Below, one piece after another: positions 318 through 37,946 of a DNA stretch of 56,347 bases (the stretch's first letter is position 1; each line of letters opens with the position of its first letter). The stretch is from contig JAUYMS010000046.1 in assembly GCA_030698625.1 (NCBI GenBank), positions 1-56,347 on the forward strand, in the 5' to 3' direction. Under the pieces are notes generated by a model, which searched no databases, was not told the origin of the DNA, and saw only the letters and a list, made by a program, of their open reading frames with translations. Source of the DNA: Candidatus Omnitrophota bacterium (GTDB taxonomy: Bacteria > Omnitrophota > Omnitrophia > Omnitrophales > Aquincolibacteriaceae). The position numbers and the translations under genes were made by a program.

Positions 318-1174
318 ATGACGGATCAGCAAAGCATAGCCGAGAAATTCAGCGACGAGTGCATGCTCCTGGCAGGTCGTCTAGAGCCTCTATCGACCAA
401 ACAGAGTATTCTCTTTTACACTGTTGCAAAAAGCGCCTCAGTCTACGTGGGGAAAATTCTGAAACAGTTGGCCGTTGCCTCCGGTATGACTCCGATCGAC
501 TGGGAGCAATACTGCTGGGAGCAAGGTTCCCGGTTCTGGGAATTATTCGCCAGCCAGGCTGATGCGACAAACGCCTTCAAGAAAACGGGCTTTATGTTCG
601 GGCCTTACCGCAGTTTGAACTTTCCGTTGGAAGCCCTCAACAGTTATCGCGTTCTTTTGCTGTTGCGGGACCCGCGCGATGTGCTCGTCTCTCTTTATTT
701 TTCTATGGCTTATAGTCATGGGATGCAAAATGAGGCGATCCGGAATGTGATTCTCCCCAAACGCCGCAGGGCATTGAGTTAGAGTGTCGACGAATTTGTA
801 CTCGAACAGAGCCCGCACTACGTGAAACTTTATGAAAATTACTGTGATCAATTACTCTACCGCCCGAATCTGCTTTTTGTGAAATACGAAGATATGGTGG
901 CAAGCTTTGAGCCCTGGCTGGATGGTATCATTGAATTTCTTGGGGTTGATGCCGTTCCGGAAGTGCGGTCAAAGATTATTCGAGAGGCTGATTTCCATGT
1001 CGAAAGGCTGATTTCCATGTCGAAAAAGAAGACGTTTATTCGAAAAGAAGGCAAGTGAGCCCCGGCGATCACTTGCGGAAACTGAAGTCCGATACGATAC
1101 GATTATTGGATAATCAGTTTCGGAACGTCATGAACATATTAAGCTATGACTATGGCAGGGAAGGATGCAAATAA
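318..1174 (+). pseudogene. Sulfotransferase (PAPS-dependent, Sulfotransfer_1/3 type), inactivated
   Basis: A cytosolic-type sulfotransferase moves sulfate from PAPS to an acceptor, here probably a sugar. The N-terminal part (318-779) carries the 5'-phosphosulfate site region (TVAKSASVYVGKIL) and the 3'-phosphate site (LLLLRDPRDVLVSLYF). An in-frame TAG at 780-782 interrupts it. The same frame goes straight on with SVDEFVLEQSPHYVKLYENY, so this is a nonsense change and not a gene end. A 20-bp tandem duplication (985-1024) then shifts the frame. Removing one copy restores EADFHVEKEDVYSKRRQVSP and the family-typical tail GDHLRKLKSDTIRLLDNQF up to a TAA at 1172-1174. With two independent lesions, the gene is almost certainly dead unless both are sequencing errors. 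Its end overlaps the next gene by 29 nt. Confidence 0.85.
985..1024 (+). repeat. 20-bp perfect tandem duplication
   Basis: Two adjacent identical 20-nt units occupy 985-1004 and 1005-1024, each beginning AGGCTGATTT and ending CATGTCGAA. The extra 20 nt change the reading frame of the sulfotransferase. Deleting one unit in silico rejoins the conserved C-terminus in frame. Confidence 0.95.
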
Positions 1175-16972: not shown

Positions 16973-19900
16973 GTGTATTTCCAAGAATTGAAAAAACTGG
17001 TTTCCCTGGTCGTTGCGAGCGTTTTTATGACGACTACCGTTGCTTGGTCAGCCCCGGCGCTTCCCGCGGTAAGCCTGCTCCAGCCCGGCGAAATTATCGC
17101 CGACGGTGTTTATGTTCCCACTCTTATTGACCAGTTGGAGCTTCCCGAAGCCCTAGGCGCTGTCGGGCGTCGGCACTTATCAAACACGTCCTCCACGTCT
17201 TCTTCATCCATTATTCTCGTCCAAGACGCGCATTCAAGTTACGAAGCCCAGCAGAATATCAAAGGTATTCTCGAGCACCTCTCCGTTCAGTACGATGCGG
17301 ATCTCTTTTTTCTAGAAGGCGGTATGGGAGAAATCGACCCGTCCTTACTGGAATTCTTCAGTGACGATGAGTGGAACCTTCGCCTCGCCGATCTTTTCAC
17401 CCGAGACGGTGTTATCGGCGGCACCGAGCTCTTTCTGCTGAATAACTCACTAAAAAATAAGACAAGTCGCAAGGTTGAAGCCTATGGTGTGGAAAAGGCT
17501 GAGCTTTATCGGGAGAATCTCACTGACTTTCGCGCAGTCTACGATAAGAAACCGCAAGCAGATCAATTTCTGAGCCGGCTTAAAGAACGTATTCTTACAG
17601 CGGGTTCTCATATTTTTAACAAGAAGCTCAAGGAATTTTTTCGCGAATGGCTTTTCCACCAAGATAATCCCACAGAGCTTCTTCGGCAGTTAAAAACTCT
17701 CGAACAAACAGCCTTGGCGGAACTCGGTATCGATCTCTCCAATCCCCGCGAGCAGCTTGATTGGCCGCAGCTGGTTCGTTTTCATCAGATTAGAGTGCTG
17801 GAATCCGAGCTTGATCCGGAACAGGCAAACGAACAAATGGATAAGCTGGCCAATTGGATGAAGGCGCATGGCGTTAGCGATGACCTTATCGCGAAGATTA
17901 GACAGCTTGATAACGGGAGCCGGAAGAGCGGTGATAACAACCAGAGGTTCGAAGATCACCGCGGCTTTCTAGAGTCTCTTTATACGGTTCTTTCGGAATA
18001 CGATTTCTCCTTTGCGCAATATCCCGATCTCAGCCGCAGGCTCGGTCTGCGGGTTCTGCAAAGCGAGATTAAGGCCAAGGACCTATTTGATGAGCTGTCG
18101 CTTCTCACCGACAAGATTCTCGAGACGATGGCTGCAAGCCCGGTCGAGAAGACCCTCGTCGAGCTCTACTCAGACTATCTTTTGTTAAACAGCCTTTTCT
18201 CTCTGGAGCTGGTCTATGAAGACCATGAGCAGCTCGTCGCCAAAAGGGCCGCAGTTCTGCCGAGCGCCGTCTGGCAGCGCTTGAATTTGCTGGCTTCATC
18301 TGAACTTCGTGAGGATGCGAAAGCGGCTCCGGGGGCAGGAACGGATGCCGTCTTTGCCGAAGCCTTATCCTTTTATCGGGGTGCAAAAGAGCGCGAGGCC
18401 GCCATTTTTGAGAATATGATTACAAAGATGCGCGAAACAGGTAAGTCGCACGCAGTTCTCGTGGCCGGTGGTTTTCACACGGAAGGTTTGTTCAAAATGT
18501 TCCGGGATAACGCCATATCCTATGCCGAAGTTTCTCCGCAAATCTCTGAGGTCGAAGAAAATAGTGTCTATGTCGATGTCATGACGCTCAAGGGAGACTA
18601 TGTCACACAGCGCTCTTATTCTCGCCAGCCCAGTGTTGCAGATGCTCAAGGTTTGCTCGGTCTTCACGACCGTGTCGGTAATGCCGTTGCTGCCAATTAT
18701 GCAGGTTTGGTTCACGTAAACTTTACGACGCTTGCCAGGCAGCTTGCCGAAACAGGCTCGGTTACTTATCCCGAGCTCCGTGCTGCCGCTGCGAGTAGTG
18801 CGGTTCTTGCGGCGCATGGGATGGTTTACCTGCCGGAGACGGGAGCTTTAGTTTTTGCCGGTGAAACGGTCGAAGCTCGTGACGGTAGTGCGCTTGCTTG
18901 GGCAGAGACCGGTCCCGCTCTTGTATCCCAGGCGGCCGTGCGTTCTGAGTTGAGGAGTGCCGTAGATACGATAAAACAGTGGTTCGGTGTCAGCCCGGTC
19001 ACAGCTTCCAGGAGCAAGCGCCCCAAGATGTCACTCACTCCGAGATTTGAACGCTTGGAAGACCGTACGCTCTTGGCCGGAGTTGTGAATGTTTATGACG
19101 GGGATTCTCTTCCCGATAAAATTGCCGAAGCCCAGGCCGGGGACACCGTTCTCATCCACAACGATCAATCGGACTTAGTTTTCCGCGGAGGTTTCCAACT
19201 CCCCGAGGGGGTTACCCTGCGAACCAAAAAGTGGGAAAATCCCGTTACGCTCGATGTCAACAGCGAGGACACCCAGACGCTGGATCTTATCAAGATGGGG
19301 TCGAGTTCCCAGATCGTAGGTAATTTTTTAATCAGAGATTCGGCTGACGACGGCGTGGATACTGTCATTATGGTTGGCGTCGGAATCGAAGGCGTTCGCA
19401 TCGAAGGTGTCAAGGTGGACGAAAGAATGGAAATTTTTGGCAATCAAACCTTTGTGACTCATGGACAGTTCGGACCGGTGGTTATTGAAGGCTCGAATAA
19501 CGTGCTGGATGCCGCGACATTTGAAGGAAACGTCACTATTAACGGTTCCGACAATACTATTCAGAATAGCGACGGCATTGTCGAGACCGGCCCGGCCGTG
19601 ACGCTAGTCGGGGGCCACAACCGCCTCGACAATAATATTTTTCACACTCAAGGACCGATTATTGTAAATCACTATGACCCGAACTCAGGGCAGACTGTTC
19701 CGGTACCGCTCAGCGGGCCTGTTGTTGAAGTGACCGGCAGCGAACCCACGGATAAGAATGCAGGAAGCAATGTTCTTAATGGCAATACGATTTATGGTTG
19801 GGACGGCGCGAAAACCGGCAGCGGCATTTCAAAGGGGGTCCGGTTTACCTATTGGACCGGCCCGGAAAACACGGTCACCAACACGATTATCGCAAATGTA

Positions 19901-22900
19901 GGTCAGCCGCTTGATACGCACAGCCCCTATCCTGTGGACGTGAGCTATAGCCTTTTTACCAATGATAATTTTCGAACTAACACAGCTGTTAAGCCGGAGC
20001 CGACTTTTGTCTTCGGTGACGGCGTCCAAACAAATGTCGATCCTCTATTCGCAAATCCGCCTGTCAGCTTCCGGCTTCATCATGATTCACCCGCAGAAGA
20101 AGCGGGGCGCGACGGACGCGATCTTGGGGCCTTGCGGGAGTTGGTGAGCATTGAGCCTTCGGGAACGGACGTAACCCGCGTAACGCCTATTCCGGGACTC
20201 GCGAAGCGTGGCGTCTCGCTCCTGGCGACAGCGTCTGCCAAAGAAGAAGGAAGCGAGGCCGGTGCCGTGGGCTTCTGGGACAACCGGGTGGTCGTACGGC
20301 TCTTCACAAAGGATGAGGCGGGCGGTATTACGGCCGATAATTTCGGGACGACCGAGATTGAGACCTCAGACATCTCGGATGCCTTTGAAAACGACGTGCT
20401 CGTCATCGGGGCTTCCGGAACTCATGACAGCGTGATCGTCGAAATGGTATCCGCGAATCCCGTAACGGGAGAAGAAAACAAGGGGCTCATCCGCATCAAC
20501 GGATTGCAGGCCGATCTTCAGCAGACCTACGATATTTCTCTTTCTGATTTCGAAGATCAGGGTGTTGACCTCGAAAACTTCCGCATTCTGTTCTTTTCCT
20601 ACGATGATGCCGCGGCGGATTACATGTTGAATGCCTACCCGCCGAGTGGCGAATCGGTTCTTGCCTTTGCCGACAACCTCACCGCCGATGATATTTCGGT
20701 GATGCAGGGGGGTGTTCTCATCGATCAGGGAAAAGTCTGGCCCGGCGAACATGCGGCGACGCGCGTGCAGTCCGAGCCCGAACGCTTCGATTATACGCAA
20801 CTCGGCGAAGCCGCGGTCGTGGGAATTCACTCGCCGGATATGGATCAGATCGCCCAGAATTATGTCGTAGTAAGGGCGCATGATTTCGACGGGAATAGTA
20901 CGAGTTTCCGTCTGGAAGGTGTGAGCGGGGAAGAGCAGATCCTTGCCATTCCGAATGCCTTTCTTGAAGAGCGCGGAATCAATACCAAAAAAGTCTATTA
21001 TGTGCAATATGACGCCTATGCGAGCACGATCAGCGCCGTCTACGATGATGAAGGCAATCTCGATCCGGCCTCGTTGATCGTGCGCACCGATCCGCCGGAA
21101 ACCGACATCATTGTCAATCCGGATAGTCAGGAATCTGCCGACGGGCATTATCGCGTGACACCCGACCGCTTTAGCCCCACCACTCAGCTGCGTCTGACAG
21201 ACCTGGAGCTCAATACGCATAAACATTTTGTCAACGTTAATGCCACGGGAACAAACGGCTCGGCAGTGTTTTTCGGGGAATTTTCCGTAACCAATGACGG
21301 CATCTATATGCTGGCCAAAGAAAGAGACCTGCCCGGCAATGTCAGCCACTTCGATCGCTATGTCCTGCGTTATCTGGCCTATGAGAATCTTCCCGAGGCT
21401 CCCGAGAGCCTGGGCGTGCGGGTGCAGGCCGGGCGGTCGTCGATCGACTCTATTGATCTCGGCGATACCGTTGCCCTGCAAAGGGAAGCCGTCAGTTCCA
21501 TCGGCCTCGTGAAAGGCAAATCCATTCTAAGCGTGACGGACAATGCGGGTACGACAACCCTCGTAGACTTAGCAACCGGCGAAATCGTATTGCCGAATTA
21601 CGTCTTCGAGACGGTGGACCTTGCCGACGGCCGGCAACAACTGCGTGTTGTCGATGAGATAAGCGGCGCATCTCAAACGGTGTTTACGACCGGCGGCGAA
21701 GAGTATGGGCAAACCCTGACAGGCACTGCGGTCGACCCGACGCAGCGATATATCTTCTTTGACTACAATAAGTATCCGCGGGGAAGCCTCTCGACGCCGC
21801 ATCTGATGATCTACGACACAGTCAAGCAGGAATTGGTCAGTCCTATTGATGCCGATACGGGTGAAGCGCTGGACCTCAATGGCGAAGATGCCATTACGGG
21901 GCAGGGGCGTTCAGCTTCCAGTTACCGGTTTGTCGAAGATATTGCGATCATTCCGACTACGCGCGACCCGTATACGCGGTATTGGTCCGACGGGTACTTC
22001 GTCAAAATGACCGACGATGGGGTAACGATCAAGAAAACGGGCTCGATCTCAAGGACCCAGTACTCTGCCCAGGAAAGGCTTATATATTTTAGGGAATTCG
22101 ATTTAATCGGCAAAGCTACCCTCAACCGCGCTTACAATATCGACACCGGAGAAATCACTACGGCCACGCCTCCGGTGACGACATCTTCTGTTTCCGGAAC
22201 CATCGTGCAGATCACCAATGTGGCAGGAGATGTCCTCTTTGAACACGATTACAGCACGGAACCGGCGGGTACATTCCCTGAAGGCCGTCCTCCCATCGAG
22301 GATACACGAGTTGTGGCCGGGGCCCTGATTGTCAATCTTACCAATAATAAGATCGACGTCATTCCCATCCGCACTGACGCGAAGATCAATCGCCTCGACG
22401 GCATCAGCATCAGCGCGGCGGAGGAGTGGTTTTACGATCCCGACAGGCTTCATCTGACGGTTCTTAAGGATCAATTCAGCCAGGTCTTCTATACCCTTTA
22501 TGTTAACAGTCTCGTTACGGACAATCCCGACATCAACGAACATGTGACCGAATTTACCAGAATTCAGGTTTCAGGCACGGATCTGAGTCAGGTCACGGAC
22601 CTTCCGTTTCAATACATTGCTCCCGGCGTACGGTTTGTTACGGTCAAGCCCGTCGGAAGCAATACCTATGTCACGAGCAATCGCGACTATATCAAAATTG
22701 ATGCCGAAGACAGCGATCAGGGAGGCGGCCCGTCATTCGATTCGCTGACGACGGGCGCGGTCGAAACTCATGATTTAACCGGCGTGAGTCAAATTATCGT
22801 CTCCATCCTCGGTACGGATGAAGTCGCCAGGTTGGAATTGGTGGATTCACAGGAGAAGAAGCATTCGGTGGTCCTCGAAGGGATTAAGCCGAATGAGTTG

Positions 22901-25900
22901 CAGACAGCGGCCATCCAACTGGGTGAGTTTGCCGATAAGATTGATCTTAGCCAAACCCGTTTTCAATTCCTCATCGATGCCCTTCCCGGCCGCAGCCAGT
23001 TTGTGCTGGGTGTGGGCCCTGACCTGGCCGAGCCTTTAACCGCGGCCGGTGATGATTACTCGGTGATTGTAACGGGCGGAAGCATTATCACGGTACCCAA
23101 TCGCCCGGAGCTCGGGACGCCTAACCTACGCGAACTCGGTGTCGCGGTTCGCGGCAACCTTATGGAAGGCGACGAGAATCCCGTGGATCTGAATTATTTC
23201 GAAACCGACAACGGCACCACCATCATTCACGTTCCTGTGGCCAACGGCCGCGAAGCCGTGCTGTTCGTTGAGCCCGGTCTGGATCCCACGCTGCCACAAA
23301 ATGCGACCGTTCGCACAAATATCGCCGAAGGCCGATTGTCGCCTGATGAAGCGCATCTTGTGACGTACCGGAACATATCTGGCAGCAGCAATACGGATAT
23401 CATTTCGGTCACGGACACGGTTACGGGCGAAGCTGCCGAATACGAAGTCGAATTTAGTGAAAGCGGCGTTCAAGAACCCCCGCAGCCTCAATACGGCCAG
23501 CCCGGAGCGGAAAGGTCTGCGATTAACAATGCATATGTTGTGGTCAGTACCTTGAGGCTCTTCAACGGCGAATCCGAAAACATTTTGACGGCGATTCCCT
23601 TACAGGGGCAGGTTGCAGAGCCCATCAGCGTTTCCATTCCCGTACCGACCATCGCGGAAACCGGCGAGGTCAGGGGCGAGCGTCTGGGCTATCATTTCAG
23701 GGCCGCCGAATTCATCTCCGGTACGAATACGGTCATCGTAACCCTAGATAATGACAAGCGGTTTCGGTTCAATATCGATACCGCGGAATTGAGCGAGATC
23801 CCGCCTTTTAAAGTCGTATTCGACTATCCGGGCACGCAGCAGGTGATCCGGGTTTTGGACGCTAAGGGCGAAGTCCAGCTTGAATACGGCTATGACCGCG
23901 GAAGTTTCCAGAGCCTCCCGATCAACGGTTACAGAATCGTCGGCAGCAACCTAATCGTTGATCTGGATAATGACACTTTCGATGTCTTTCGAATCGGTAC
24001 CGACGAGGACCCTTTCAACTTTGATGGGATCTCGGTAAGCCGGGCCGTTGTCGAAAACGGCAGGCTCGAGCTTACGGCGCTTGAGACGCAGAGAAATTCC
24101 ATCACTTACAGCATTAATCTGAACAACCCGGCGGATTTTACCGAGACGCGCCATGACTTCGTAGAAATTGCAGCGGCCGGGACCGGCATGGATCAAATCA
24201 CCGAGCTCGAATATGCGCGTGATGAAAACGGGCGATTGCGCACGCTTACGGTCAGAACTACCGGAAGCCAAACCTCGGCTAGGGGATACGAGAACACTGT
24301 TGTTGTCGATGCTCACCGTAGCGACGAGGGCGGATCGGCCGTATTTGACGATTTTACGACTTCAGTAATAGAGACAATCGATCTGAGCGGCCGCGATACG
24401 ATTACCCTCGGCTTTGCCGGCACGCATTCCGAGAGGCGCTATGAACTCGTATCCGCGGATGAAAACGGGGTCGAGACCAAGGGGTCGGTCATCATCACGG
24501 GCATTGAACCCGGCACGATTAAAGTCGTGACGATTTCGCTGTCGGCATTCGCAGAGCAAGGCGTGGATCTCAAGCGCGTGCGCCTGCCGGCTGGCATCAA
24601 TGTCGAAGACGGACGGGAACAGTTTATTGACGTCGTTAGTTCCATAGGATTCGGACAGTTTTCGACAAGCGATGATGAACACATCATTCTTGTTGCGGGT
24701 GACCGCTTCTACTTCTACCCGAAGGAACCGAGCGCGGATACACCGCATAGCGACAATATCTACACTGCCAAGCTCGACGAAATTCTCGGGACGGAAGGAA
24801 TTCATGTGCTTGGCGCGTCAATTTCAGCTCGCACGATCGATGTTTCGATTGACGGCTCGGATGTCAAGAAGATCATCGAAATCGAGCTCGTCGGCCAGGT
24901 TAAGGGTTACGCCTTGCTGACCGAAAGAGACGGCTGGGAGCGTCTTCGGGTTCTTGGCCCGGGCAAGTTCAATTTTGATGAAAACAGACTGCTGTATTTC
25001 ACGCCGCGATCAAATGATGCGAGCGGTACCCTGAGCGTGTTCGATTTAGAAACGGGCGAGACCGCGGAACATTTTCTGTTTGCGGATGATGAAGGCGTTC
25101 CGGAAGAACTTATGACGAACGGTATTCACCGGACCGTGGTGGGCACGGACTACGCGGTTGTGACGCATGTGTCGTCCTCGCAGAGCATAGACTTTCACAC
25201 GGTGACGTATGACATTATCAATCTCAATACCGGAGAGGAGTCCGAAATCTATGAGCGCCTGCCCGTCGATGCGGACCTCGGCGGAGAACTCTTTCTTTCG
25301 GGAACCATTTTTCGGCAACTCGACCCGATTACGGGCGATCTTACGGATTCCATGGTCATCAATCACCGTAACGGCCGCGTGACGCGAATTTATCCGTCCA
25401 TCAATGCTATCGGCGCCGAATCGAACCCGTCCTATGCCTTTCGTGATGTCTTTATTCAGGGTCAGGGCATCGGTAATAATACCGTAAAATTAGAATTGAT
25501 TGAGCTCGAAACGGGACGCACGCAGGTGCTCACGACCCAGACCGGTTATCCGAGGGGCGGAGAGATCACGCATGTCTATGATGTCTCGCCCGATTCCTTC
25601 CCGGGTTCGCCGGTCGTTGTCTATAGCGTTGGAGGGCAGGAAGACCCGCAAAACGGAAGGACCTTCACGACCTATGTGCAGAGGGTGGACGATCCGGCCG
25701 AGCGGGCTACGGTGGTAAGCAGGAGGACCCAAAAGCCTCGTGCTTTGCAGGACATCGAGTATGTCCGGGATGGCGAAAATGTAGGCAGGGTGTTTGTAAG
25801 GCATTATGTGACATTTGATCTGAGTTTTGGCAGTGAAAACGCCATTTTTGACCGGCATGTTGCTGCTGTAACTGACTCCCTTATCCACGTACCCGGCTTT

Positions 25901-28900
25901 GCGATTTCTCAGCTTTATCGTGACGGAGACAAGGTGCACGTCGATGGAGATACGCCTCTTGTCCTTATCGTTCACGACGACTACGGTCCTTGGCCCTCTA
26001 ATGTCAAAGATGTTAACGCGCTGGTTTTTGTCTCCACCGGAGAAGGCAACGATATGCACCAGTTGGCGGCTGTTAATATTGTTCAAGGCGTAACCGGCGA
26101 CAGTATCGAAGCGGAAAATACGTTCCTCGATGCAACGACTGCAGCCTCATCCGAAAACAGGCGGGTGGCCGTGATGGGGTTTAACGGCGAGAATTTTACG
26201 ACGAGCGTTCTCGTCAATCCTACGTCAGGTCAGGCCCCGCTTCGTCTCGACGTTGCCATCACCGAAGAACTCAGCCGCAGCGGCAATGTCGTGACCTATG
26301 CGACGATCAATCAGAACGACCAGGTCGGTGAAGTTCATGTGAATCTTCATACGTTGCAGGTAGTTAAACCCGGGGAGCCGTTTACTCAGAGTGATCTCGA
26401 AGCGCTTATTCGTAACGACCTTTTGGCGGACCAGCTGATTGCCGACATTATCCCTGTTGCGACAAACAGCCCGCTTACCGTTGCCGCAAGAGTGGGTGAG
26501 CAGTTTTCGAGCGGCGGAGAGACTCACCTCTTCGTGTACTCGGCCGTGCTCGATTCGGACGGAAATCCGAAGCAACTGTATTCGCTGGAACGGTCCTATG
26601 ACCGCCCTGTTCGGGGCTTTACTTTTGATGATACCGGGAACGCTTTTGTGCTGCACTTGAGCAACGGTCCGTATCCGGGCGCGGTGGAAGTTTACCTCGT
26701 CGGTAATCAGGAGCCGTCGGTTTCTAAAGTGGTGCCGGCGATCGCAACAACCGGAAACAACGTTTTGGTTAATATCGATGATGCGGCGGGGCCGGAGCTG
26801 TCCATCGATGTCTATCCGAATCCGACTCATGAGGTCCCCGGCGGTACTTTAACAGTGATTGACGTCAGTGCCGACTCGGTCAATATCACCGATGACCGGA
26901 TTCATCATTTGCCGGATGCTATCCGCACCGAAATGCCGGCGACGGATTCCAACAGTAACTTTATCATCGAGACGCGATTTAAACCGTCCGGTTCGGGCTC
27001 CTCCGCGAATTATTACAATGTCTTTACAACCGGCGGCGAGTCGGTCGCACAATTCATCAAGCAACACGGCATTTCGACATACAATGGTTTCATCAACCTT
27101 GCCCAGGACTTGCCGGATGCGGCTGCAGACGGATCCTTGCTGGTCATGCCTTCATACCATCACCGCTTTTACACAGGAGTGTTTCCGACACAGCGGCTGC
27201 AGGTAGTCAGTACGGAAACGGGTGAGGAAGTTCGGCAGATCGATCTTCCGGCCCCCGGCTCGACGAGCGAAAACGGTGTGACCACAATCCATTTTATACC
27301 GGGTTCCTCCACTCGCGTCATCGTTCGCTACGCCAATCAGCAGGAAGAAATTTATGACGTCACGACCGGAGAGCTTGTGAGCCGGCGTGATGTCCACGAT
27401 ACGAACGGGGACGGGATTGTTTCCCCGATAGATGCACTGATTATTATCAATCGGCTGAATGCGGCGGGTCCCGGCATCATTACCGATACCACGCACAACC
27501 TCGACACGAACGGAGACCGGAATATCTCACCGATCGATGTTTTGCGGGTCATCAATTACCTCAATAACCGTGCGGCAGCCGCGCCTGAAGGAGAAACTCC
27601 GGTCAGTGTCATAAAGGCCGAAGGGGAAGCGGGGCATGTCACGATTCACTACCAATCCGGTTTCTACGAAGAGTTTTCGGGCGGCACGTATCAGAAAATC
27701 GGCGAAGGCGAATCTGGCGGCGATATTGCGCGTTCGAATCCTAACTTCCGTATCGGTACTTACGAGGAGGGCGGTGACTTCTATTACAGCATTACCAACA
27801 TTCAAACCGGCCAGGTCTTTCCGGGACCGACCAATAGCGGACGCAGGCTGACCCAAATAAGTGATGCATCGGGCGGTGGGGCCGTCGGCACGTTCACGGC
27901 CTATAACCCGCCTGACGTTCATCACGAGGGTCGCTATGCCGTGCACGGCTGGGAAAGTGTTGTTAGGACCACTCGCGGCATTGGCGATACCACCCGTTTC
28001 GGGAATCAGTTTGTCATCCTGGATCAATCGATTCCTGTCGAGGACGAGGCCAATTGGGTCAGCGTCGATCTGAATGACCTCGTCGAGGGTGATCACGAGG
28101 GCGAACGGGATATCATTGTGAGGTCTGTCTACTTTTCGAGTGGAACCCCCAATCTCATAGAAGTTGTCTACATGGATGTTTCGGCAAGTGAGGAGCGACG
28201 GGCGTTTTATACGTTACAAGGCGAACGCATCGCGTCTTCGGTGCCGGCGGATGCAATCGAAACGTCGCAATCCGATTACTATTACACGATTACCCCGGGC
28301 AACAACGGTGAAGTCCTGACCGTGTACCATGCGACCGGTGATGGAGTCGAAAGCCGTATTATCGCTGCGGACAGCGACATCTATGACGTAATTGATGTTA
28401 CCCCGAACGGAGTGGTTGTTTACGGGCTCAAATCGGCCTCGTCTCCTGTTGTGGAACTCCGGGACTTCAATGACCCGAATCGCCGGCTTACACTGAACAG
28501 ACGCGGCGTGCTGGAAGATATCGTCATTGATGGAGCTAACGGTGATGTTATTTTGAATGCGCGCACCCATCAAGGTTTCAGGGTTAACACCGAGGGACCT
28601 CTTCAGGAGATCCGCCGTTTTGACGAATTGCCGGAGGGCGCGGAAGCCGTCGGGGTGCATGATGACTCTTATAAGCTGCTCGCTCGCGAAGTCTCGTTTG
28701 TCGGTGCCTCGGGGACTACCTATAACACCGTACCTATCCTTAGTTTATTGCAACCAACCGACGACGGCGCCTATGAGGGCCCGGTCTTGATCGGGGTGGG
28801 TTCTAATGCCCTGGCCATTGATGGCGGTACCGTGGGCATTTCCCTCGACGGAAACACCGTTATCTTTCCTTCGAGCCGCACGACGACATTCACGCTGAAT

Positions 28901-31900
28901 GGGATTCCCCACTTTGGACACCACAATCTCTTTGTCAATGCCAGACACCTTTCAAATCCGGCAGAATCAGCCGAGTTTGATATCAAAGATTCAACCGCTC
29001 ATCCGGCCCCCGATCCGATCGAGGCCATTTTCTTCGGCACCACGGAAGCGATTGTGACGACATCTGAAGGTCTTCTGAGAATCGATCTCGATACGCTGCA
29101 GCTTGTGCCGACTCATGATGGTACGGTAACCATTGCGCCGGAGGCGACGCATGAAGATATCAACGTGATTGCTTCAGAAATCAACGTCCTTGACGGAATA
29201 AACGGCGTGCAATTGGTGTCCTCTGATTTTACGGCTGAAAGCGACTCACGGCGTGCGCCCGGAGCCTTTGATGTGACGCTCAATACGGCCGGCCGCAAGT
29301 TTGACTTCGGCGGGTTTGAAGTTGTGACTGCGCAGACTTTCGGGAGTCAGCTTGTTTTTGGTATAGAAACCACAACAGGGATTCAAAGCATTATCGACGG
29401 TGACGGCATGGTGATGGTTGAGATCTTCGATGCTGACGGCGATTCAGTCCGGCCGAAGTTGACCGAGGTTTCCGAAACCGAGCTTATCTTTAACATCGAT
29501 GCGGCGACATTCGCAGCCGCGAACGTGGATAATTTTAAAGGGTTGGTATTAGTCCTTGAAGACGGCAATATCGCCGACGGTAAAGATATTCTGGCGACCT
29601 TTCGGATTCATGTCCGGCCCCAGCCGCTTCAGGTCTTCGAGCCTTCAACCGTATACACGAATCGCGACATCACCGATTTTGGGGCGACGAATCAGTTCGT
29701 GACACTGGGGACAAGTGTCGACAGTACAATCGTAAGCAATGACAGCCAGAGGGGCGTCCTCACCGGCCATGTCAATCCGACCAGCGAATTCTTAGACATA
29801 TCAGGACCGAACATTGATCTCGTCAATACGCCGAGCTATGCCGCTCAATGGGCGCCCGACGCGGCGGGCACAGAAGTATCGATTAATAGTTTGGGTCGCG
29901 TTGTGGCTTCGTTTCCGGGCGAGAACTATGGGGCATCTGTCACCAACGAAGTCAATCCTCCGATCAAACTCGAAGGTATCTTTCGATATGTGATCGGTCT
30001 GAAAAGCAGCAGAAATGCCACCTACAGTCTAGTGCTAACGACCGCAAACTCAGAGTACCGATTTCCCGCCTTCAATGCGGTCGGGGGAATCGGCAGTCTT
30101 CTTTATGTTGCGATTCCGGAAGGCCTGCGCGCAGACGAAGTGACGGGTTTCACGATTTCTCGTATCGAGCGCACTGCAGCTTCGGTCCTGCCCACCGATG
30201 AAACCGGCGATTATGCGGTTTCACTCGAAGTGTCACAGCTTGAGTTTCATCAACGGGTTCCGCCAGACAGATCCGCGCTTGCCGGATTTGCCGGTTTCGG
30301 AATGAGAAATCTTAAGCCTGTCGTCGAGGGCGGTGTCGTCATTATCGATGTGGGAGCGGACTTCGGTGATACGGGAACCCTGGAATTCATTGATTTTCAA
30401 GCTGACGGCCAGCGGCAGTCGGTACAGTTTCAGCTCCGAGGGTTGGACGGGGAACTGGGCACCTTTGCTTTCCCCGAAGCGGCATTCGCCCGTGTCGGCA
30501 TTACACCTGCCGATATCGATAGCGCGATTCTCATAGCGTCCTTGGAGCATCGCGGTACGCAGGAAGGAGACGCCCAGCTTCGGCTGCTGGCAAGGAATCC
30601 GCTCGACACCAATGACGACGGCATAGTCTCTCCGATCGATGCCCTGCTCATCATCAACTACCTGAATCGGTCAGGTCCCGGACTCGTTACGGATACGACC
30701 GAAAACCTCGATACGAACGGCGACCGGATCATTTCTCCGATCGATGTCTTACTCGTCATCAATTACTTGAATAATCGTGCCGCTACGGCCCCTGAAGGAG
30801 AAACACCCATCAACGTCATAAAGGCCGAGGGTGAAGCCGGTAATATTACGATTAATTATGCCTCAGGCCTGAGCGAAACTTTTGACGGCACAACTCTCGC
30901 ACCGATCATCGAGCAGGAACAAATCGGATTTGATGCGGGCCGGCGTCATGTAGAGATTAATCCCAACACGCAAACCGCCGAAGTGACGTTTACGAGACCC
31001 AGAAGGCTAAGAAACATCTTATTGCGTTTTGAGAACGTGTCGACTGAGCGGCAACCCGGCGACCGCGTTATTGGCCTCAATCGCGCCGATGGCACCCGTT
31101 ATTTTGGGCAATTGGTTCAAAGATTTGATCGTCGCGGCAGACTCAGCTATGAAAGGGTCGAGAGCGGGACCGAAGGGTCTGATTACGCGATTACGGTGAA
31201 GGGTAGGACTGCCGTGATTCAGTATGATTCGGCCGATGATAACATCACGGAAACCTACCGCGTTGTTAGCGAGCGCCATCGCCCAAGGACTCAAGCGATT
31301 CATACCTTTAAGAACGCCAACAGAGAGATCACAACTCTCTATGGCAAGCGGCACAGGCTTAATATTCAGGGTGACTTGGGCGAAACGGTTAGTGTGCGTT
31401 TTTCAAATCGGCCCAATCGTGGTGTGGCTATACTCACTTTGGGTAATGGAACGAGAGTGACCTATGATCGCGTGCGTCTTTTTCCTGCCGATCGGGATGT
31501 GCCCGAGGATCTCGATGTCATTCACACTTACGCGGGCAAGAATGGTGACGAATATAATGTTATCGGTCGTTTTCGTCGCGCGAAAGGCCCGGATGGCAAC
31601 CGCATTAGTTCTGCTGAGGCCTCTTCATTAATACGTAGCTCCGCCGATGTGGCGGACGATGTGTTCTCTAATTTTGACGGTGTCGGCGGTCTCGGAAGCG
31701 CATTGGATGATATCGCCGCCGATCTGGCGCTTCTCCGTTCCCGCTCGGAACTCAGAAGCCTTCGTGGGGTTATTACGACGGCCGTTGCCTTGGCGGCGCT
31801 TTCTGCAGTGACAAAGCCCGCGACGGCAGAGGAGGGAATTTACCAGATTCGCGATCTGAGGCCTGCCATTGTACAAATTGAAAGAAAAGCCCCTGCCGTT

Positions 31901-33091
31901 AGTGCCATTGGGCCGTCTGTCGGCGCCGATGACCAAATCCGCATTATTAAACCGATTATTACTTTTGACGACGAGAAGCCCGCCCAACCGGATTATCCGC
32001 GAGTGGATTTGATTAATGACAAAAAGGGGCGTCCGAGAGTCGTGAAGATCGTTGACGGCCGCGCGGTCCCGGTGGGGCCGCCTGATCCGGGGGTCGTGGA
32101 TCTGACGGAATTTGAGCTTCTGGATCTTGTGGAGCTTGGCCTGGTGGAAACCCATCTTGCGCGATTCGATCGCTCATTGGTACCGACAATTGCCGTGGCC
32201 AGGATGTCCGAGGATCTACTGGACTTAGCCTTTCACGCCGACCGTATTCTCCTGCAGGCGCTGATCAATATTGTGGCGCCTGAGATCATGGAAGCCAAAA
32301 CCGACCAGGTGGCTGTGGCTAATGCCATGCAGGATTGGTCCAATGTCTTCGAACAACTGATTGCCGATCGCAAATTTCTTAATGATGGTAATGGTATCGT
32401 AGTATCAACCACCGCGGGTGATCTCGCGAAGAGAAAGGCGGTTACGTTAGCTAAGCTGCCCTTGATGGCGGCTGTTGCCAAACGCGACACGCGCGGAAAA
32501 TACAATCAGCGGTTTGTCATCGGCGGAGAAAACGCGCAGGCCATTCACGATACCGTCTTTAGCCGCGGTAATGCTCTGACTGCAATTGTAAAAGCCTTCT
32601 CCGGAATGGTGCGGTGGGGCCAAGAAGGAGAATCTCTGGCCGACCTGATTTCGGATGCCATTGTGGAAGAATCCCGGAGCGCACAACCGGGTTCGGTCAT
32701 CTCATCGGTGACTGCCGGCGAAGCCGATGCGATGCCGCATGTCATTACTCAGGTGCTCCGTATGATTCAGGATGAAAGCGAACTCACTGCGCTAGATCTT
32801 CTCAATCCGGAACAGATTGCCGATTTTGCCGCGGCCGATTTTGCCCGCGACTTGATGCTGCAGGACTTTTCGTCACGTGAGCAGGTCGACCCGGAGAGAC
32901 TTAAAACAGACCCGGACTACGCTGACGGCATCGCGCAACTCTTGAAACAATACATTGCCGCAAACTACCCTGACATTGATCTGAGCCAGGTCAATATCAA
33001 GGGCGGCCGTTTTCACATTTCGCTCCAGGAGATTTCTAAACAGCTCACCGTCTTGAGAGATGCCATGGACGCTCGAGCCAGAGCGGCTTAA
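16973..33091 (+). CDS. Giant secreted modular protein (5372 residues), polyprotein-like
   Basis: GTG 16973 follows AGAGGG by about 7 nt; no other in-frame start exists back to a TGA at 16910. Layout: signal peptide (about 1-27, VSLVVASVFMTTTVAWSA); N-terminal module to 656 with QDAH (84-87), LEGG (114-117) and VAGGFHTEG (497-505), recalling a ChaN/TIKI-type fold; RSELRS (657-662); LEPR-XLL sorting motif PRFERLEDRTLLA (690-702); right-handed beta-helix (703-1060, ending DPLFANPP...DLGALRE); propeller-like TGE repeats and beta-sandwich modules; dockerin-like pair 3476-3531; a second dockerin pair 4545-4600; a basic stretch; RSELRS (4924-4929); signal-like segment VITTAVALAALSAVTKPATA (4933-4952); alpha-rich C-terminal module. 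Promoter and terminator flank it as a single-gene unit. Probable role is a cell-surface adhesin, scaffold or glycan-binding protein; the enzymatic status of the N-terminal module is unproven. Confidence 0.85.
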   Translation: MYFQELKKLVSLVVASVFMTTTVAWSAPALPAVSLLQPGEIIADGVYVPTLIDQLELPEALGAVGRRHLSNTSSTSSSSIILVQDAHSSYEAQQNIKGILEHLSVQYDADLFFLEGGMGEIDPSLLEFFSDDEWNLRLADLFTRDGVIGGTELFLLNNSLKNKTSRKVEAYGVEKAELYRENLTDFRAVYDKKPQADQFLSRLKERILTAGSHIFNKKLKEFFREWLFHQDNPTELLRQLKTLEQTALAELGIDLSNPREQLDWPQLVRFHQIRVLESELDPEQANEQMDKLANWMKAHGVSDDLIAKIRQLDNGSRKSGDNNQRFEDHRGFLESLYTVLSEYDFSFAQYPDLSRRLGLRVLQSEIKAKDLFDELSLLTDKILETMAASPVEKTLVELYSDYLLLNSLFSLELVYEDHEQLVAKRAAVLPSAVWQRLNLLASSELREDAKAAPGAGTDAVFAEALSFYRGAKEREAAIFENMITKMRETGKSHAVLVAGGFHTEGLFKMFRDNAISYAEVSPQISEVEENSVYVDVMTLKGDYVTQRSYSRQPSVADAQGLLGLHDRVGNAVAANYAGLVHVNFTTLARQLAETGSVTYPELRAAAASSAVLAAHGMVYLPETGALVFAGETVEARDGSALAWAETGPALVSQAAVRSELRSAVDTIKQWFGVSPVTASRSKRPKMSLTPRFERLEDRTLLAGVVNVYDGDSLPDKIAEAQAGDTVLIHNDQSDLVFRGGFQLPEGVTLRTKKWENPVTLDVNSEDTQTLDLIKMGSSSQIVGNFLIRDSADDGVDTVIMVGVGIEGVRIEGVKVDERMEIFGNQTFVTHGQFGPVVIEGSNNVLDAATFEGNVTINGSDNTIQNSDGIVETGPAVTLVGGHNRLDNNIFHTQGPIIVNHYDPNSGQTVPVPLSGPVVEVTGSEPTDKNAGSNVLNGNTIYGWDGAKTGSGISKGVRFTYWTGPENTVTNTIIANVGQPLDTHSPYPVDVSYSLFTNDNFRTNTAVKPEPTFVFGDGVQTNVDPLFANPPVSFRLHHDSPAEEAGRDGRDLGALRELVSIEPSGTDVTRVTPIPGLAKRGVSLLATASAKEEGSEAGAVGFWDNRVVVRLFTKDEAGGITADNFGTTEIETSDISDAFENDVLVIGASGTHDSVIVEMVSANPVTGEENKGLIRINGLQADLQQTYDISLSDFEDQGVDLENFRILFFSYDDAAADYMLNAYPPSGESVLAFADNLTADDISVMQGGVLIDQGKVWPGEHAATRVQSEPERFDYTQLGEAAVVGIHSPDMDQIAQNYVVVRAHDFDGNSTSFRLEGVSGEEQILAIPNAFLEERGINTKKVYYVQYDAYASTISAVYDDEGNLDPASLIVRTDPPETDIIVNPDSQESADGHYRVTPDRFSPTTQLRLTDLELNTHKHFVNVNATGTNGSAVFFGEFSVTNDGIYMLAKERDLPGNVSHFDRYVLRYLAYENLPEAPESLGVRVQAGRSSIDSIDLGDTVALQREAVSSIGLVKGKSILSVTDNAGTTTLVDLATGEIVLPNYVFETVDLADGRQQLRVVDEISGASQTVFTTGGEEYGQTLTGTAVDPTQRYIFFDYNKYPRGSLSTPHLMIYDTVKQELVSPIDADTGEALDLNGEDAITGQGRSASSYRFVEDIAIIPTTRDPYTRYWSDGYFVKMTDDGVTIKKTGSISRTQYSAQERLIYFREFDLIGKATLNRAYNIDTGEITTATPPVTTSSVSGTIVQITNVAGDVLFEHDYSTEPAGTFPEGRPPIEDTRVVAGALIVNLTNNKIDVIPIRTDAKINRLDGISISAAEEWFYDPDRLHLTVLKDQFSQVFYTLYVNSLVTDNPDINEHVTEFTRIQVSGTDLSQVTDLPFQYIAPGVRFVTVKPVGSNTYVTSNRDYIKIDAEDSDQGGGPSFDSLTTGAVETHDLTGVSQIIVSILGTDEVARLELVDSQEKKHSVVLEGIKPNELQTAAIQLGEFADKIDLSQTRFQFLIDALPGRSQFVLGVGPDLAEPLTAAGDDYSVIVTGGSIITVPNRPELGTPNLRELGVAVRGNLMEGDENPVDLNYFETDNGTTIIHVPVANGREAVLFVEPGLDPTLPQNATVRTNIAEGRLSPDEAHLVTYRNISGSSNTDIISVTDTVTGEAAEYEVEFSESGVQEPPQPQYGQPGAERSAINNAYVVVSTLRLFNGESENILTAIPLQGQVAEPISVSIPVPTIAETGEVRGERLGYHFRAAEFISGTNTVIVTLDNDKRFRFNIDTAELSEIPPFKVVFDYPGTQQVIRVLDAKGEVQLEYGYDRGSFQSLPINGYRIVGSNLIVDLDNDTFDVFRIGTDEDPFNFDGISVSRAVVENGRLELTALETQRNSITYSINLNNPADFTETRHDFVEIAAAGTGMDQITELEYARDENGRLRTLTVRTTGSQTSARGYENTVVVDAHRSDEGGSAVFDDFTTSVIETIDLSGRDTITLGFAGTHSERRYELVSADENGVETKGSVIITGIEPGTIKVVTISLSAFAEQGVDLKRVRLPAGINVEDGREQFIDVVSSIGFGQFSTSDDEHIILVAGDRFYFYPKEPSADTPHSDNIYTAKLDEILGTEGIHVLGASISARTIDVSIDGSDVKKIIEIELVGQVKGYALLTERDGWERLRVLGPGKFNFDENRLLYFTPRSNDASGTLSVFDLETGETAEHFLFADDEGVPEELMTNGIHRTVVGTDYAVVTHVSSSQSIDFHTVTYDIINLNTGEESEIYERLPVDADLGGELFLSGTIFRQLDPITGDLTDSMVINHRNGRVTRIYPSINAIGAESNPSYAFRDVFIQGQGIGNNTVKLELIELETGRTQVLTTQTGYPRGGEITHVYDVSPDSFPGSPVVVYSVGGQEDPQNGRTFTTYVQRVDDPAERATVVSRRTQKPRALQDIEYVRDGENVGRVFVRHYVTFDLSFGSENAIFDRHVAAVTDSLIHVPGFAISQLYRDGDKVHVDGDTPLVLIVHDDYGPWPSNVKDVNALVFVSTGEGNDMHQLAAVNIVQGVTGDSIEAENTFLDATTAASSENRRVAVMGFNGENFTTSVLVNPTSGQAPLRLDVAITEELSRSGNVVTYATINQNDQVGEVHVNLHTLQVVKPGEPFTQSDLEALIRNDLLADQLIADIIPVATNSPLTVAARVGEQFSSGGETHLFVYSAVLDSDGNPKQLYSLERSYDRPVRGFTFDDTGNAFVLHLSNGPYPGAVEVYLVGNQEPSVSKVVPAIATTGNNVLVNIDDAAGPELSIDVYPNPTHEVPGGTLTVIDVSADSVNITDDRIHHLPDAIRTEMPATDSNSNFIIETRFKPSGSGSSANYYNVFTTGGESVAQFIKQHGISTYNGFINLAQDLPDAAADGSLLVMPSYHHRFYTGVFPTQRLQVVSTETGEEVRQIDLPAPGSTSENGVTTIHFIPGSSTRVIVRYANQQEEIYDVTTGELVSRRDVHDTNGDGIVSPIDALIIINRLNAAGPGIITDTTHNLDTNGDRNISPIDVLRVINYLNNRAAAAPEGETPVSVIKAEGEAGHVTIHYQSGFYEEFSGGTYQKIGEGESGGDIARSNPNFRIGTYEEGGDFYYSITNIQTGQVFPGPTNSGRRLTQISDASGGGAVGTFTAYNPPDVHHEGRYAVHGWESVVRTTRGIGDTTRFGNQFVILDQSIPVEDEANWVSVDLNDLVEGDHEGERDIIVRSVYFSSGTPNLIEVVYMDVSASEERRAFYTLQGERIASSVPADAIETSQSDYYYTITPGNNGEVLTVYHATGDGVESRIIAADSDIYDVIDVTPNGVVVYGLKSASSPVVELRDFNDPNRRLTLNRRGVLEDIVIDGANGDVILNARTHQGFRVNTEGPLQEIRRFDELPEGAEAVGVHDDSYKLLAREVSFVGASGTTYNTVPILSLLQPTDDGAYEGPVLIGVGSNALAIDGGTVGISLDGNTVIFPSSRTTTFTLNGIPHFGHHNLFVNARHLSNPAESAEFDIKDSTAHPAPDPIEAIFFGTTEAIVTTSEGLLRIDLDTLQLVPTHDGTVTIAPEATHEDINVIASEINVLDGINGVQLVSSDFTAESDSRRAPGAFDVTLNTAGRKFDFGGFEVVTAQTFGSQLVFGIETTTGIQSIIDGDGMVMVEIFDADGDSVRPKLTEVSETELIFNIDAATFAAANVDNFKGLVLVLEDGNIADGKDILATFRIHVRPQPLQVFEPSTVYTNRDITDFGATNQFVTLGTSVDSTIVSNDSQRGVLTGHVNPTSEFLDISGPNIDLVNTPSYAAQWAPDAAGTEVSINSLGRVVASFPGENYGASVTNEVNPPIKLEGIFRYVIGLKSSRNATYSLVLTTANSEYRFPAFNAVGGIGSLLYVAIPEGLRADEVTGFTISRIERTAASVLPTDETGDYAVSLEVSQLEFHQRVPPDRSALAGFAGFGMRNLKPVVEGGVVIIDVGADFGDTGTLEFIDFQADGQRQSVQFQLRGLDGELGTFAFPEAAFARVGITPADIDSAILIASLEHRGTQEGDAQLRLLARNPLDTNDDGIVSPIDALLIINYLNRSGPGLVTDTTENLDTNGDRIISPIDVLLVINYLNNRAATAPEGETPINVIKAEGEAGNITINYASGLSETFDGTTLAPIIEQEQIGFDAGRRHVEINPNTQTAEVTFTRPRRLRNILLRFENVSTERQPGDRVIGLNRADGTRYFGQLVQRFDRRGRLSYERVESGTEGSDYAITVKGRTAVIQYDSADDNITETYRVVSERHRPRTQAIHTFKNANREITTLYGKRHRLNIQGDLGETVSVRFSNRPNRGVAILTLGNGTRVTYDRVRLFPADRDVPEDLDVIHTYAGKNGDEYNVIGRFRRAKGPDGNRISSAEASSLIRSSADVADDVFSNFDGVGGLGSALDDIAADLALLRSRSELRSLRGVITTAVALAALSAVTKPATAEEGIYQIRDLRPAIVQIERKAPAVSAIGPSVGADDQIRIIKPIITFDDEKPAQPDYPRVDLINDKKGRPRVVKIVDGRAVPVGPPDPGVVDLTEFELLDLVELGLVETHLARFDRSLVPTIAVARMSEDLLDLAFHADRILLQALINIVAPEIMEAKTDQVAVANAMQDWSNVFEQLIADRKFLNDGNGIVVSTTAGDLAKRKAVTLAKLPLMAAVAKRDTRGKYNQRFVIGGENAQAIHDTVFSRGNALTAIVKAFSGMVRWGQEGESLADLISDAIVEESRSAQPGSVISSVTAGEADAMPHVITQVLRMIQDESELTALDLLNPEQIADFAAADFARDLMLQDFSSREQVDPERLKTDPDYADGIAQLLKQYIAANYPDIDLSQVNIKGGRFHISLQEISKQLTVLRDAMDARARAA
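18941..18958 (+). other. First RSELRS site in the giant protein (residues 657-662)
   Basis: The hexapeptide RSELRS ends the N-terminal module and is followed, 27 residues later, by a LEPR-XLL motif. The same six residues recur at 31742-31759. It is recorded because it marks a module border and may be a processing site (inferred). Confidence 0.55.
19040..19078 (+). other. Internal LEPR-XLL (planctomycete-type) sorting motif
   Basis: PRFERLEDRTLLA at residues 690-702 matches the LEPR-XLL pattern known from the N-termini of secreted planctomycete proteins. Here it is 690 residues inside the frame. An in-frame ATG at 19028 lies 4 codons before it, with AGGAG at 19010-19014 (13-nt spacing), so internal initiation is conceivable. 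Confidence 0.7.
22193..24680 (+). repeat. Two tandem modules of about 290 residues in the giant protein
   Basis: Residues about 1741-2021 and 2280-2569 share the same order of segments: a VQITN/IRVLDAKGE strand pair, DLDND or NLTNN with DV..I.TD, FDGISVS or LDGISIS, a tract around TRIQVSGTDLSQVTDL or HDFVEIAAAGTGMDQITEL, then VDAHRSDEGGSAVFDDFTT or IDAEDSDQGGGPSFDSLTT, and finally a sandwich module with DLTG or DLSG. The similarity is at protein level and is diverged. Confidence 0.7.
27398..27561 (+). repeat. Dockerin type I-like pair, copy 1
   Basis: Residues 3476-3531 hold two calcium-loop plus helix units: DTNGDGIVSPIDALIIINRL and DTNGDRNISPIDVLRVINYL. The D-x-N-x-D-x-x-x-S-x-x-D loop is the EF-hand-like motif of type I dockerins, which bind cohesins. 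It is internal, not C-terminal. A near-identical second pair lies at 30605-30771, and the 30 residues after each pair are also duplicated. Confidence 0.85.
30605..30771 (+). repeat. Dockerin type I-like pair, copy 2
   Basis: Residues 4545-4600 repeat the calcium-loop units DTNDDGIVSPIDALLIINYL and DTNGDRIISPIDVLLVINYL, followed by the shared tail NNRAATAPEGETPINVIKAE. The copy starts about 3.2 kb after the first and is preceded directly by the last beta-sandwich module, an arrangement common in dockerin-bearing surface enzymes. Confidence 0.85.
31742..31828 (+). other. Second RSELRS site followed by an internal signal-peptide-like segment
   Basis: RSELRS (4924-4929) is followed by LRG, then a hydrophobic stretch VITTAVALAALSAV and the small-residue pattern TKPATA before EEG (4930-4955). 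Together they look like the n-, h- and c-regions of a Sec signal peptide with an ATA cleavage site, although they are 4.9 thousand residues inside the protein. Confidence 0.6.
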
Positions 33092-36815: not shown

Positions 36816-37946
36816 ATGGCGATAATTACGGATCAGAGCCTCGAAGCCCGCATCCTAAATTCCAATATCCTTATCATCGATGACGAAGAGGCTATGGCGT
36901 CGATGTTAGCCGAAATCCTCATAGAAGAGAAATACGCCAATGTCCGCTTCATTACCGACCCGCGCAAGTCTTTGGAGACCTATGAGGAGTTCCAGCCTGA
37001 TCTTATTATTCTGGATCTGAATATGCCTCGCATGGACGGTTTTGATGTGATGGAGAAAATTAAAACAGTTGAGAAGGGAGCCTACCTTTCGATCCTGGTA
37101 CTTACGGGAGAGTCGGATCAGGAAATACGGCTTCGGGCCTTACAGGCCGGCGCTAAAGATTTTTTGAATAAACCGATCAATCTTGCCGAAACGCTCGTGC
37201 GCATCCACAACCTGCTCGAAGTCCGCATCTTGCACAAAGATTCTCAAAATCAGAATAAGATCTTAGAGCGCCACGTCTTCGAGCGCACAAAGCAACTTCG
37301 CGAAGCGATCGCGGAGCTCAATCAGGCGCACTATGAGGCGAAACAGGCTTACATTGAAACAATTTACCGACTTTCTCTGGCGACGGAATATAAGGACGAG
37401 GATACTGCAGCTCATGTTCGCCGCATGAGTCTCTATTCATCCGTGATGGCGAGGGCCCTGGGTTTGGATGATGAGACGGCGGATATGCTGCTTTATGCGA
37501 GCCCAATGCATGATGTCGGCAAGATCGGAATCCCCGATGCAATCCTATTGAAGAAAGGGCCGCTCACGCCCGAGGAATGGGAAATCATGAAGACCCATAC
37601 GACGATCGGGTCCAAGATTTTGAGCGGGTCTCAGGCGCCGATTTTAAAAATGGCCGAGAGTATTGCTTTGAACCACCATGAATGTTGGGATGGCAGCGGT
37701 TATCCGAGGGGGATAAAGGGGGACGCTATTCCTATCGAAGGCCGCATCGTCATGGTCGTCGACATTTACGATGCCCTGCGCAGCAAAAGACCGTACAAGA
37801 AGCCGTTTGACCATGAGACCTCTTTAAGGATTATGCTCAAGGGGGACGGACGGGTCCGCCCGCAGCAATTTGATCCTAACATTGTCGAGCTATTGGAGCA
37901 GTTAGCGCCGGAGTTTCAGAAGATCTACGAAGAGCACCCGTTATAG
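36816..37946 (+). CDS. Response regulator with HD-GYP phosphodiesterase domain
   Basis: The 376-residue protein has a receiver domain (15-135) with IDDEE acidic pocket, phospho-acceptor D67 in LILDLNMPRMDG, T97 and K119 in LNKP. A coiled-coil linker (about 145-180) leads to an HD-GYP domain (185-370) with the metal ligands HDVGKIG (H232, D233), LNHHE and the signature GSGYPRG. The family breaks down cyclic di-GMP in response to phosphorylation by a histidine kinase; no kinase gene is in the window. All key residues are present, so it should be active. It is the second gene of a pair with the DUF6178-like gene. Confidence 0.92.
   Translation: MAIITDQSLEARILNSNILIIDDEEAMASMLAEILIEEKYANVRFITDPRKSLETYEEFQPDLIILDLNMPRMDGFDVMEKIKTVEKGAYLSILVLTGESDQEIRLRALQAGAKDFLNKPINLAETLVRIHNLLEVRILHKDSQNQNKILERHVFERTKQLREAIAELNQAHYEAKQAYIETIYRLSLATEYKDEDTAAHVRRMSLYSSVMARALGLDDETADMLLYASPMHDVGKIGIPDAILLKKGPLTPEEWEIMKTHTTIGSKILSGSQAPILKMAESIALNHHECWDGSGYPRGIKGDAIPIEGRIVMVVDIYDALRSKRPYKKPFDHETSLRIMLKGDGRVRPQQFDPNIVELLEQLAPEFQKIYEEHPL

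Follow-up and report, generated by a model that had tools for sequence, protein, structure and literature searches.

The window analysed here, the whole 56,347-nt stretch of JAUYMS010000046.1, is contig C12 of a 3.52 Mb draft genome of 50 contigs (G000) in which some open reading frames (ORFs) are cut by contig ends. It contains a giant ORF that starts with GTG, the sole cysteine codon lying upstream of this start (Table 1). The initial annotation had divided the product of this ORF into three parts bounded by two copies of RSELRS. Both copies were found at module borders as described, at residues 657-662 and 4924-4929 of the 5,372-aa ORF, while only 0.00045 copies are expected from composition, and the three-part division holds for this protein, which is a simple case given that other giant ORFs have up to 19 parts. 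As to what had been seen after the two copies, the signal-peptide-like segment after the second is present as the hydrophobic stretch SLRGVITTAVALAALSAVTKPATA (residues 4929-4952), and the LEPR-XLL motif after the first stands as a string recognised by eye, RFERLEDRTLLAG, about 30 residues on, for which no Pfam or NCBIfam profile gave a match. Against Pfam, the passenger matched Dockerin_1 in two stretches (E 1.8e-24). The C-terminal module shares 67% identity across 294 aa with the final module of C7_13373, another putative RSELR polyprotein of the same genome.

Table 1. Coordinates of the giant ORF of the window, its parts, and one cargo module from elsewhere in the genome
Feature	Position	Strand	Remark
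Giant ORF, 5372 aa	16973..33091	+	head - RSELR - passenger - RSELR - C-terminal module
Sec-type signal peptide region, KKLVSLVVASVFMTTTVAWSAPA	16973..17059	+	from sequence; first helix in the model
N-terminal head domain, TIKI/Ere/ChaN-like	17144..18592	+	codons: D85 17225, H87 17231, E115 17315, H502 18476
Separator 1, RSELR, residues 657-661	18941..18955	+	after low-confidence/disordered stretch 601-656
Passenger, 4262 residues (662-4923), Cys-free	18956..31741	+	from sequence
LEPR-XLL-like string RFERLEDRTLLAG, residues 691-703	19043..19081	+	by eye only
Dockerin type I-like repeat pair, first copy	27398..27575 (end approximate)	+	Pfam Dockerin_1; position from sequence
Dockerin type I domain, second copy	30605..30772	+	best Pfam stretch, 2036-2091 of window:24500-31741
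Separator 2, RSELR, residues 4924-4928	31742..31756	+	from sequence
C-terminal module, 444 aa, signal-like start, ends ARARAA	31757..33088	+	from sequence
Permuted enolase module	L043:10945-13602		C13_38330 residues 4206-5091

RSELR separators and module borders

A DNA pattern for RSELR codons matched G000 143 times against 23 for the reversed pattern, and a stricter pattern 110 times against 7. In the 1.02 Mb taken around the pattern matches, 277 exact copies of RSELR were found in 38 giant ORFs, which together encode 219,131 aa (about 657 kb of the 3.5 Mb) and of which the largest reaches 12,257 aa, and the short ORFs of the same sequence contained just three further copies. Other orderings of these letters occur 1.03 times each on average in the 38 ORFs, and one-residue variants are nearly absent (KSELR 0, RTELR 0, RSEIR 0, RSEVR 1, RSDLR 4, RSELK 3); here and below, expectations were derived with simple models of composition, rearranged motifs or random placement. 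The copies share the logo [P/A]-[Q/D/A/V]-R-S-E-L-R-[A/S/T]-[D/E]-[D/E], beyond which no further conserved column was found within 30 residues. Thus, the hexapeptide first taken as the signal is present in the window, but its fixed part is RSELR, with a sixth residue that varies across the genome (A in 67, S in 58 and T in 45 of the 277).

The 277 copies are encoded by 203 distinct DNA 15-mers, indicating that the constraint acts at the peptide level; a reading of RSELR as a DNA repeat was rejected because the codons differ. The serine codon is TCN in 269 copies and AGY in 8, where AGY would be expected about 110 times, a bias that indicates common descent of the copies together with strict purifying selection. 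Such ancestry, along with the pairwise duplication of some copies (RSELREAGTAMRSELR is found twice in C13), would also fit separators that are now functionless scars of gene fusion or of recombination via a repeated linker, retained through inheritance. We hold this to be very improbable, because the synonymous sites are well mixed whereas the amino acids never change, and neutral scars would decay; moreover, the separator sequence differs between lineages but its place does not. Even less credence can be given to the proposal that the modules, which resemble separate genes, are translated separately with RSELR marking internal starts or a stop-and-go event. Start codons were no more frequent than expected over the 20 codons that follow RSELR (ATG 64 against 76.8; ATG, GTG and TTG together 190 against 189.4), leading us to reject internal translation starts, and the RSELR coding sequence, whose codons are free, contains no GGAGG or AGGAG (Shine-Dalgarno).

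Whether RSELR strings fall within folded domains, which would speak against module borders, was examined by placing the domains found in seven giant ORFs against the separators, with random placement as the null. None of the 44 Pfam domains was crossed by RSELR, where 9.6 would be expected (P = 1e-4), supporting the border reading of the initial annotation. Furthermore, outside their heads giant ORFs share 55 homologies, of which 16 start no more than 8 residues from a separator, against an expectation of 1.1. A single ORF of about 2,000-12,257 aa carries several independent proteins. Owing to the divergence of the modules, HMMER covers this cargo sparsely; the modules recognised include PfkB, PPDK, HAD, PP2C, histidine phosphatase, Fic, NUDIX and CofD, as well as AAA, methyltransferases, response regulator, HD, HEAT and TPR. 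The cargo modules are mutually unrelated, cytosol-type enzymes, and some hold several domains with no separator between them. One is a complete UDP-glucose dehydrogenase that begins 4 residues past its separator and keeps the active-site Cys motif. Another is an enolase in which the barrel stands ahead of the N-domain, a circular permutation inside a Cys-free polyprotein that is predicted to be exported (Table 1); judging by the alignment, the equivalents of the catalytic residues are apparently kept. A normal enolase gene lies elsewhere in the genome (C12:111518). In C7_34923 (L037), residues 3938-4506, a separator stands between a response-regulator receiver and an HD domain, which are normally one protein, and an intact RR-HD gene is found in the window at 36816-37946.

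Features of an N-terminal type follow separators more often than expected in the giant ORFs, extending what had been noticed in the window: hydrophobic segments start within 35 residues after a separator in 22 cases (8.1 expected), and Tat-type RRxF motifs occur within 15 residues in 4 cases (0.21 expected). A Tat- or Sec-like N-terminus at this place makes sense only for a free, or formerly free, N-terminus. This weighs against the alternative that RSELR is a short binding motif, by which a docking partner (scaffold, chaperone or surface protein) attaches to the linkers of chains that stay whole. Docking would also account for the invariance of the motif, its inter-module position and its drift by lineage, and the window passenger carries two dockerins, like surface scaffolds. 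Nevertheless, it is unlikely to be the explanation, since the modules are unrelated cytosol-type enzymes, some of which have such an N-terminus of their own right after RSELR, and since some sites lie merely 9-30 residues apart (median spacing 529 residues).

A shared head and small-residue ends in cysteine-poor chains

Where the 5' end is intact, almost every giant ORF opens with a signal peptide comparable to that of the window ORF, followed by a head of about 650 aa from one family. Three ORFs with unusual starts, C9_25708, C32_3050 and C41_66001, look truncated or frameshifted; the latter two still match the head family, but C9_25708 does not. Across 24 aligned heads, which share a mean identity of 23%, H87, E115 and H502 are kept in all 24, as are twelve other residues, and D85 replaces the other Glu in 19. 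The 28-residue spacing of H87 and E115 equals that of the catalytic pairs in Bcr135 (3B55) and RRSP, and D85 and H502 appear to match the remaining two active-site places. Judged from conservation and spacing, the head would thus have the His-Glu pair and second His that characterize TIKI/Ere proteins. Different from the TIKI/Ere/ChaN proteins, the head has a long helical insert, and its family was found in Omnitrophota only, with 79 of the 80 loci of named relatives (genome contigs) titled Omnitrophota or Omnitrophica.

The match of the head to the TIKI superfamily is weak, the sequence similarity being marginal. The best Pfam relative was ChaN (Tiki superfamily), with E = 0.0021 in 2 of the 24 members, while the head profile gave nothing credible against PDB, and a search of the genome contigs with a single head gave no match. 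A Foldseek search with the AlphaFold2 model of the head (pLDDT 77.7, pTM 0.70) gave as its plausible matches 3b55 (prob 0.41), EreC (0.20) and ChaN (0.16), none at E <= 0.001. Residues 601-656 of this model, directly before separator 1, are of low confidence, as would be expected of a linker.

At the opposite end of the chains, Ala is the final residue of 29 of the 31 ORFs that contain a stop (AA closes 20 of them, SA 7), compared to 12% in other genes. The tails have a weak common C-terminal helical element, with 13 of 42 ranking first in a leave-one-out test; a shared tail fold was rejected, because only the final A is invariant in the tail alignment. Two giant ORFs end differently, C18:126-9179 (-) in ...EWCYP and C47:105003-132053 (+) in ...EQWCYPLYWAT, and their shared WCYP contains a lone Cys near the C-terminus, a residue otherwise avoided. 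Indeed, Cys makes up 0.027% of the giant ORFs against 0.997% of neighbouring genes, a depletion of about 37-fold, and the residual internal Cys are mostly in close pairs or catalytic. This poverty may reflect adaptation to export into an oxidising place.

Separator variants across Omnitrophota

The head family is present in 176 of 384 genomes of the phylum. Among the Omnitrophota genomes compared, RSELR as such is limited to some members of the class to which the window belongs, and its excess lies mainly within part of the window's order. The recurrence in Omnitrophota that had been suspected initially is therefore borne out by the 277 copies in the own genome and by variants elsewhere, with RSELR itself restricted to a lineage. 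Among family relatives, the separator is RSE[LMAVSI]R in G009, RSEMR in G020 and R[SA]E-x-R in G005; in another family, f4 (G042, G026 and G040), it is [AG]-x-S-L-G, and likewise in the named genome OFTM55, where locus L181 has nine such sites and no Cys in 3,849 aa. Pooled over the family relatives, RSE-x-R occurs 73 times against 1-11 for rearranged controls, and [AG]-x-S-L-G pooled over f4 occurs 29 times against 1-4. In all groups, the first separator follows the head motif at a similar distance, mostly about 490-670 residues. At the edges of homologous modules, RSELR of G000 aligns with RSENR (G005), RSEVR (L237) and RAETR (L233), the L233 match being a stretch of 42% identity bounded on both sides by separators of the G000 protein.

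In many other giant head-ORFs of Omnitrophota, no recognisable separator was found. Examples are L207, L192, L212, L208, L234 and similar ORFs, which contain about 0.4% Cys and may represent an ancestral or a different state. In G048 (C37, L124-L129), a 35,113-aa open frame follows the head, of which some 24,000 codons are runs of N.

Putative processing of exported polyproteins

One separator over dozens of unlinked genes, differing between genera and always inter-module, argues for a trans-acting, sequence-specific enzyme and its sites. We consider it probable, from the sequence evidence, that the giant ORFs encode exported polyproteins whose separators are cut by a specific protease. A single chain, with signal peptide, TIKI/Ere-like head enzyme, one to about eighteen modules and a small-residue tail, would be translocated, and a sequence-specific protease would then cut at RSELR, probably after the last Arg and before the small and then acidic residues, freeing the modules. 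One recognising enzyme or enzyme family would keep the site uniform within a genome, and enzyme and sites would have drifted together between lineages, giving RSELR, RSE-x-R, R[SA]E-x-R and A-x-S-L-G. Taken together, this looks like a genome-wide polyprotein-cutting system of a kind undescribed in bacteria. Arguing against the cutting of the chains are the modules that hold several domains undivided by a separator, the many giant head-ORFs of other Omnitrophota in which no separator is recognisable, the weak match of the head to the TIKI superfamily, the heads that stand alone, and the candidate peptidases C11, S41 and C14, which do not co-occur with the system. In the literature, with preprints outside the search, no 'bacterial polyprotein' of the RSELR kind was found, nor any paper joining Omnitrophota with polyproteins or mentioning RSELR.

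Viral polyproteins likewise comprise many unrelated proteins in one chain, with one protease and a strict, shared short site, and viral proteases and their sites drift together between lineages. In contrast, the present genes are cellular bacterial genes at dozens of unlinked loci, the chain is probably exported and the protease is putative. To our knowledge, protease-site co-evolution has so far been known mainly from viruses; a strict five-residue site, present hundreds of times per genome and shifted in relatives, would offer a natural experiment in it. The closest known system in logic is that of the MARTX toxins, in which several effector modules are released from a giant secreted chain by sequence-specific autoprocessing (PMC6315884, PMC2900308). 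Here, different from MARTX, about 40 genes per genome with up to 19 modules each have one separator in common, and the proteins have a Sec-type N-terminus and a TIKI/Ere-like N-terminal head and are nearly Cys-free; no Pfam match to RTX repeats or a cysteine protease domain was found in the seven giant ORFs scanned or in the window ORF. One MARTX effector, RRSP, is a TIKI-family, sequence-specific endopeptidase of Ras/Rap1 (PMC6254334).

ORFs of more than 20 kb are described as frequent in Omnitrophota; they have few annotated domains and an unclear role, and have been read as possible predation or adhesion proteins (PMC10066038). No mention of a separator, a common head, Cys poverty or a polyprotein reading was found there. 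With the separators, giant genes hitherto read as single huge surface proteins become parsable and hundreds of separate modules annotatable, turning a riddle into the testable question of whether RSELR is cut, and whether by the head. If the modules leave the cell, it calls for an explanation why a bacterium would export enzymes resembling enolase, UDP-glucose dehydrogenase and kinases. A bolder possibility, which we offer tentatively and with considerable doubt, is that about a fifth of the genome encodes exported polyproteins, each with its own TIKI-type protease head recognising the separator of its lineage, that this head and its separator co-evolve as viral proteases do with their sites, and that Cys-free metabolic and signalling enzymes are sent out, perhaps into prey or host. 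Enzyme delivery of this sort would be in line with a predatory way of life, as has been suggested for some members of the phylum (PMC10066038).

The head is the leading candidate for the protease, since it is almost always present, its active-site residues are kept and the superfamily it resembles includes sequence-specific endopeptidases. This assignment is far from proven, because the head also exists alone: some head proteins stand without separators, suggesting that it serves a separate function as well. Other peptidases were rejected as the common cutter, namely Peptidase C11, absent in 39 relatives, S41, absent in G000, G020 and G050, and C14 metacaspases, found in G000 only and not in G009, G020, G050 or G042. 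The two metacaspase-like (Peptidase C14) genes of G000 are located at C41:6058-6735 and C34:18075-18752.
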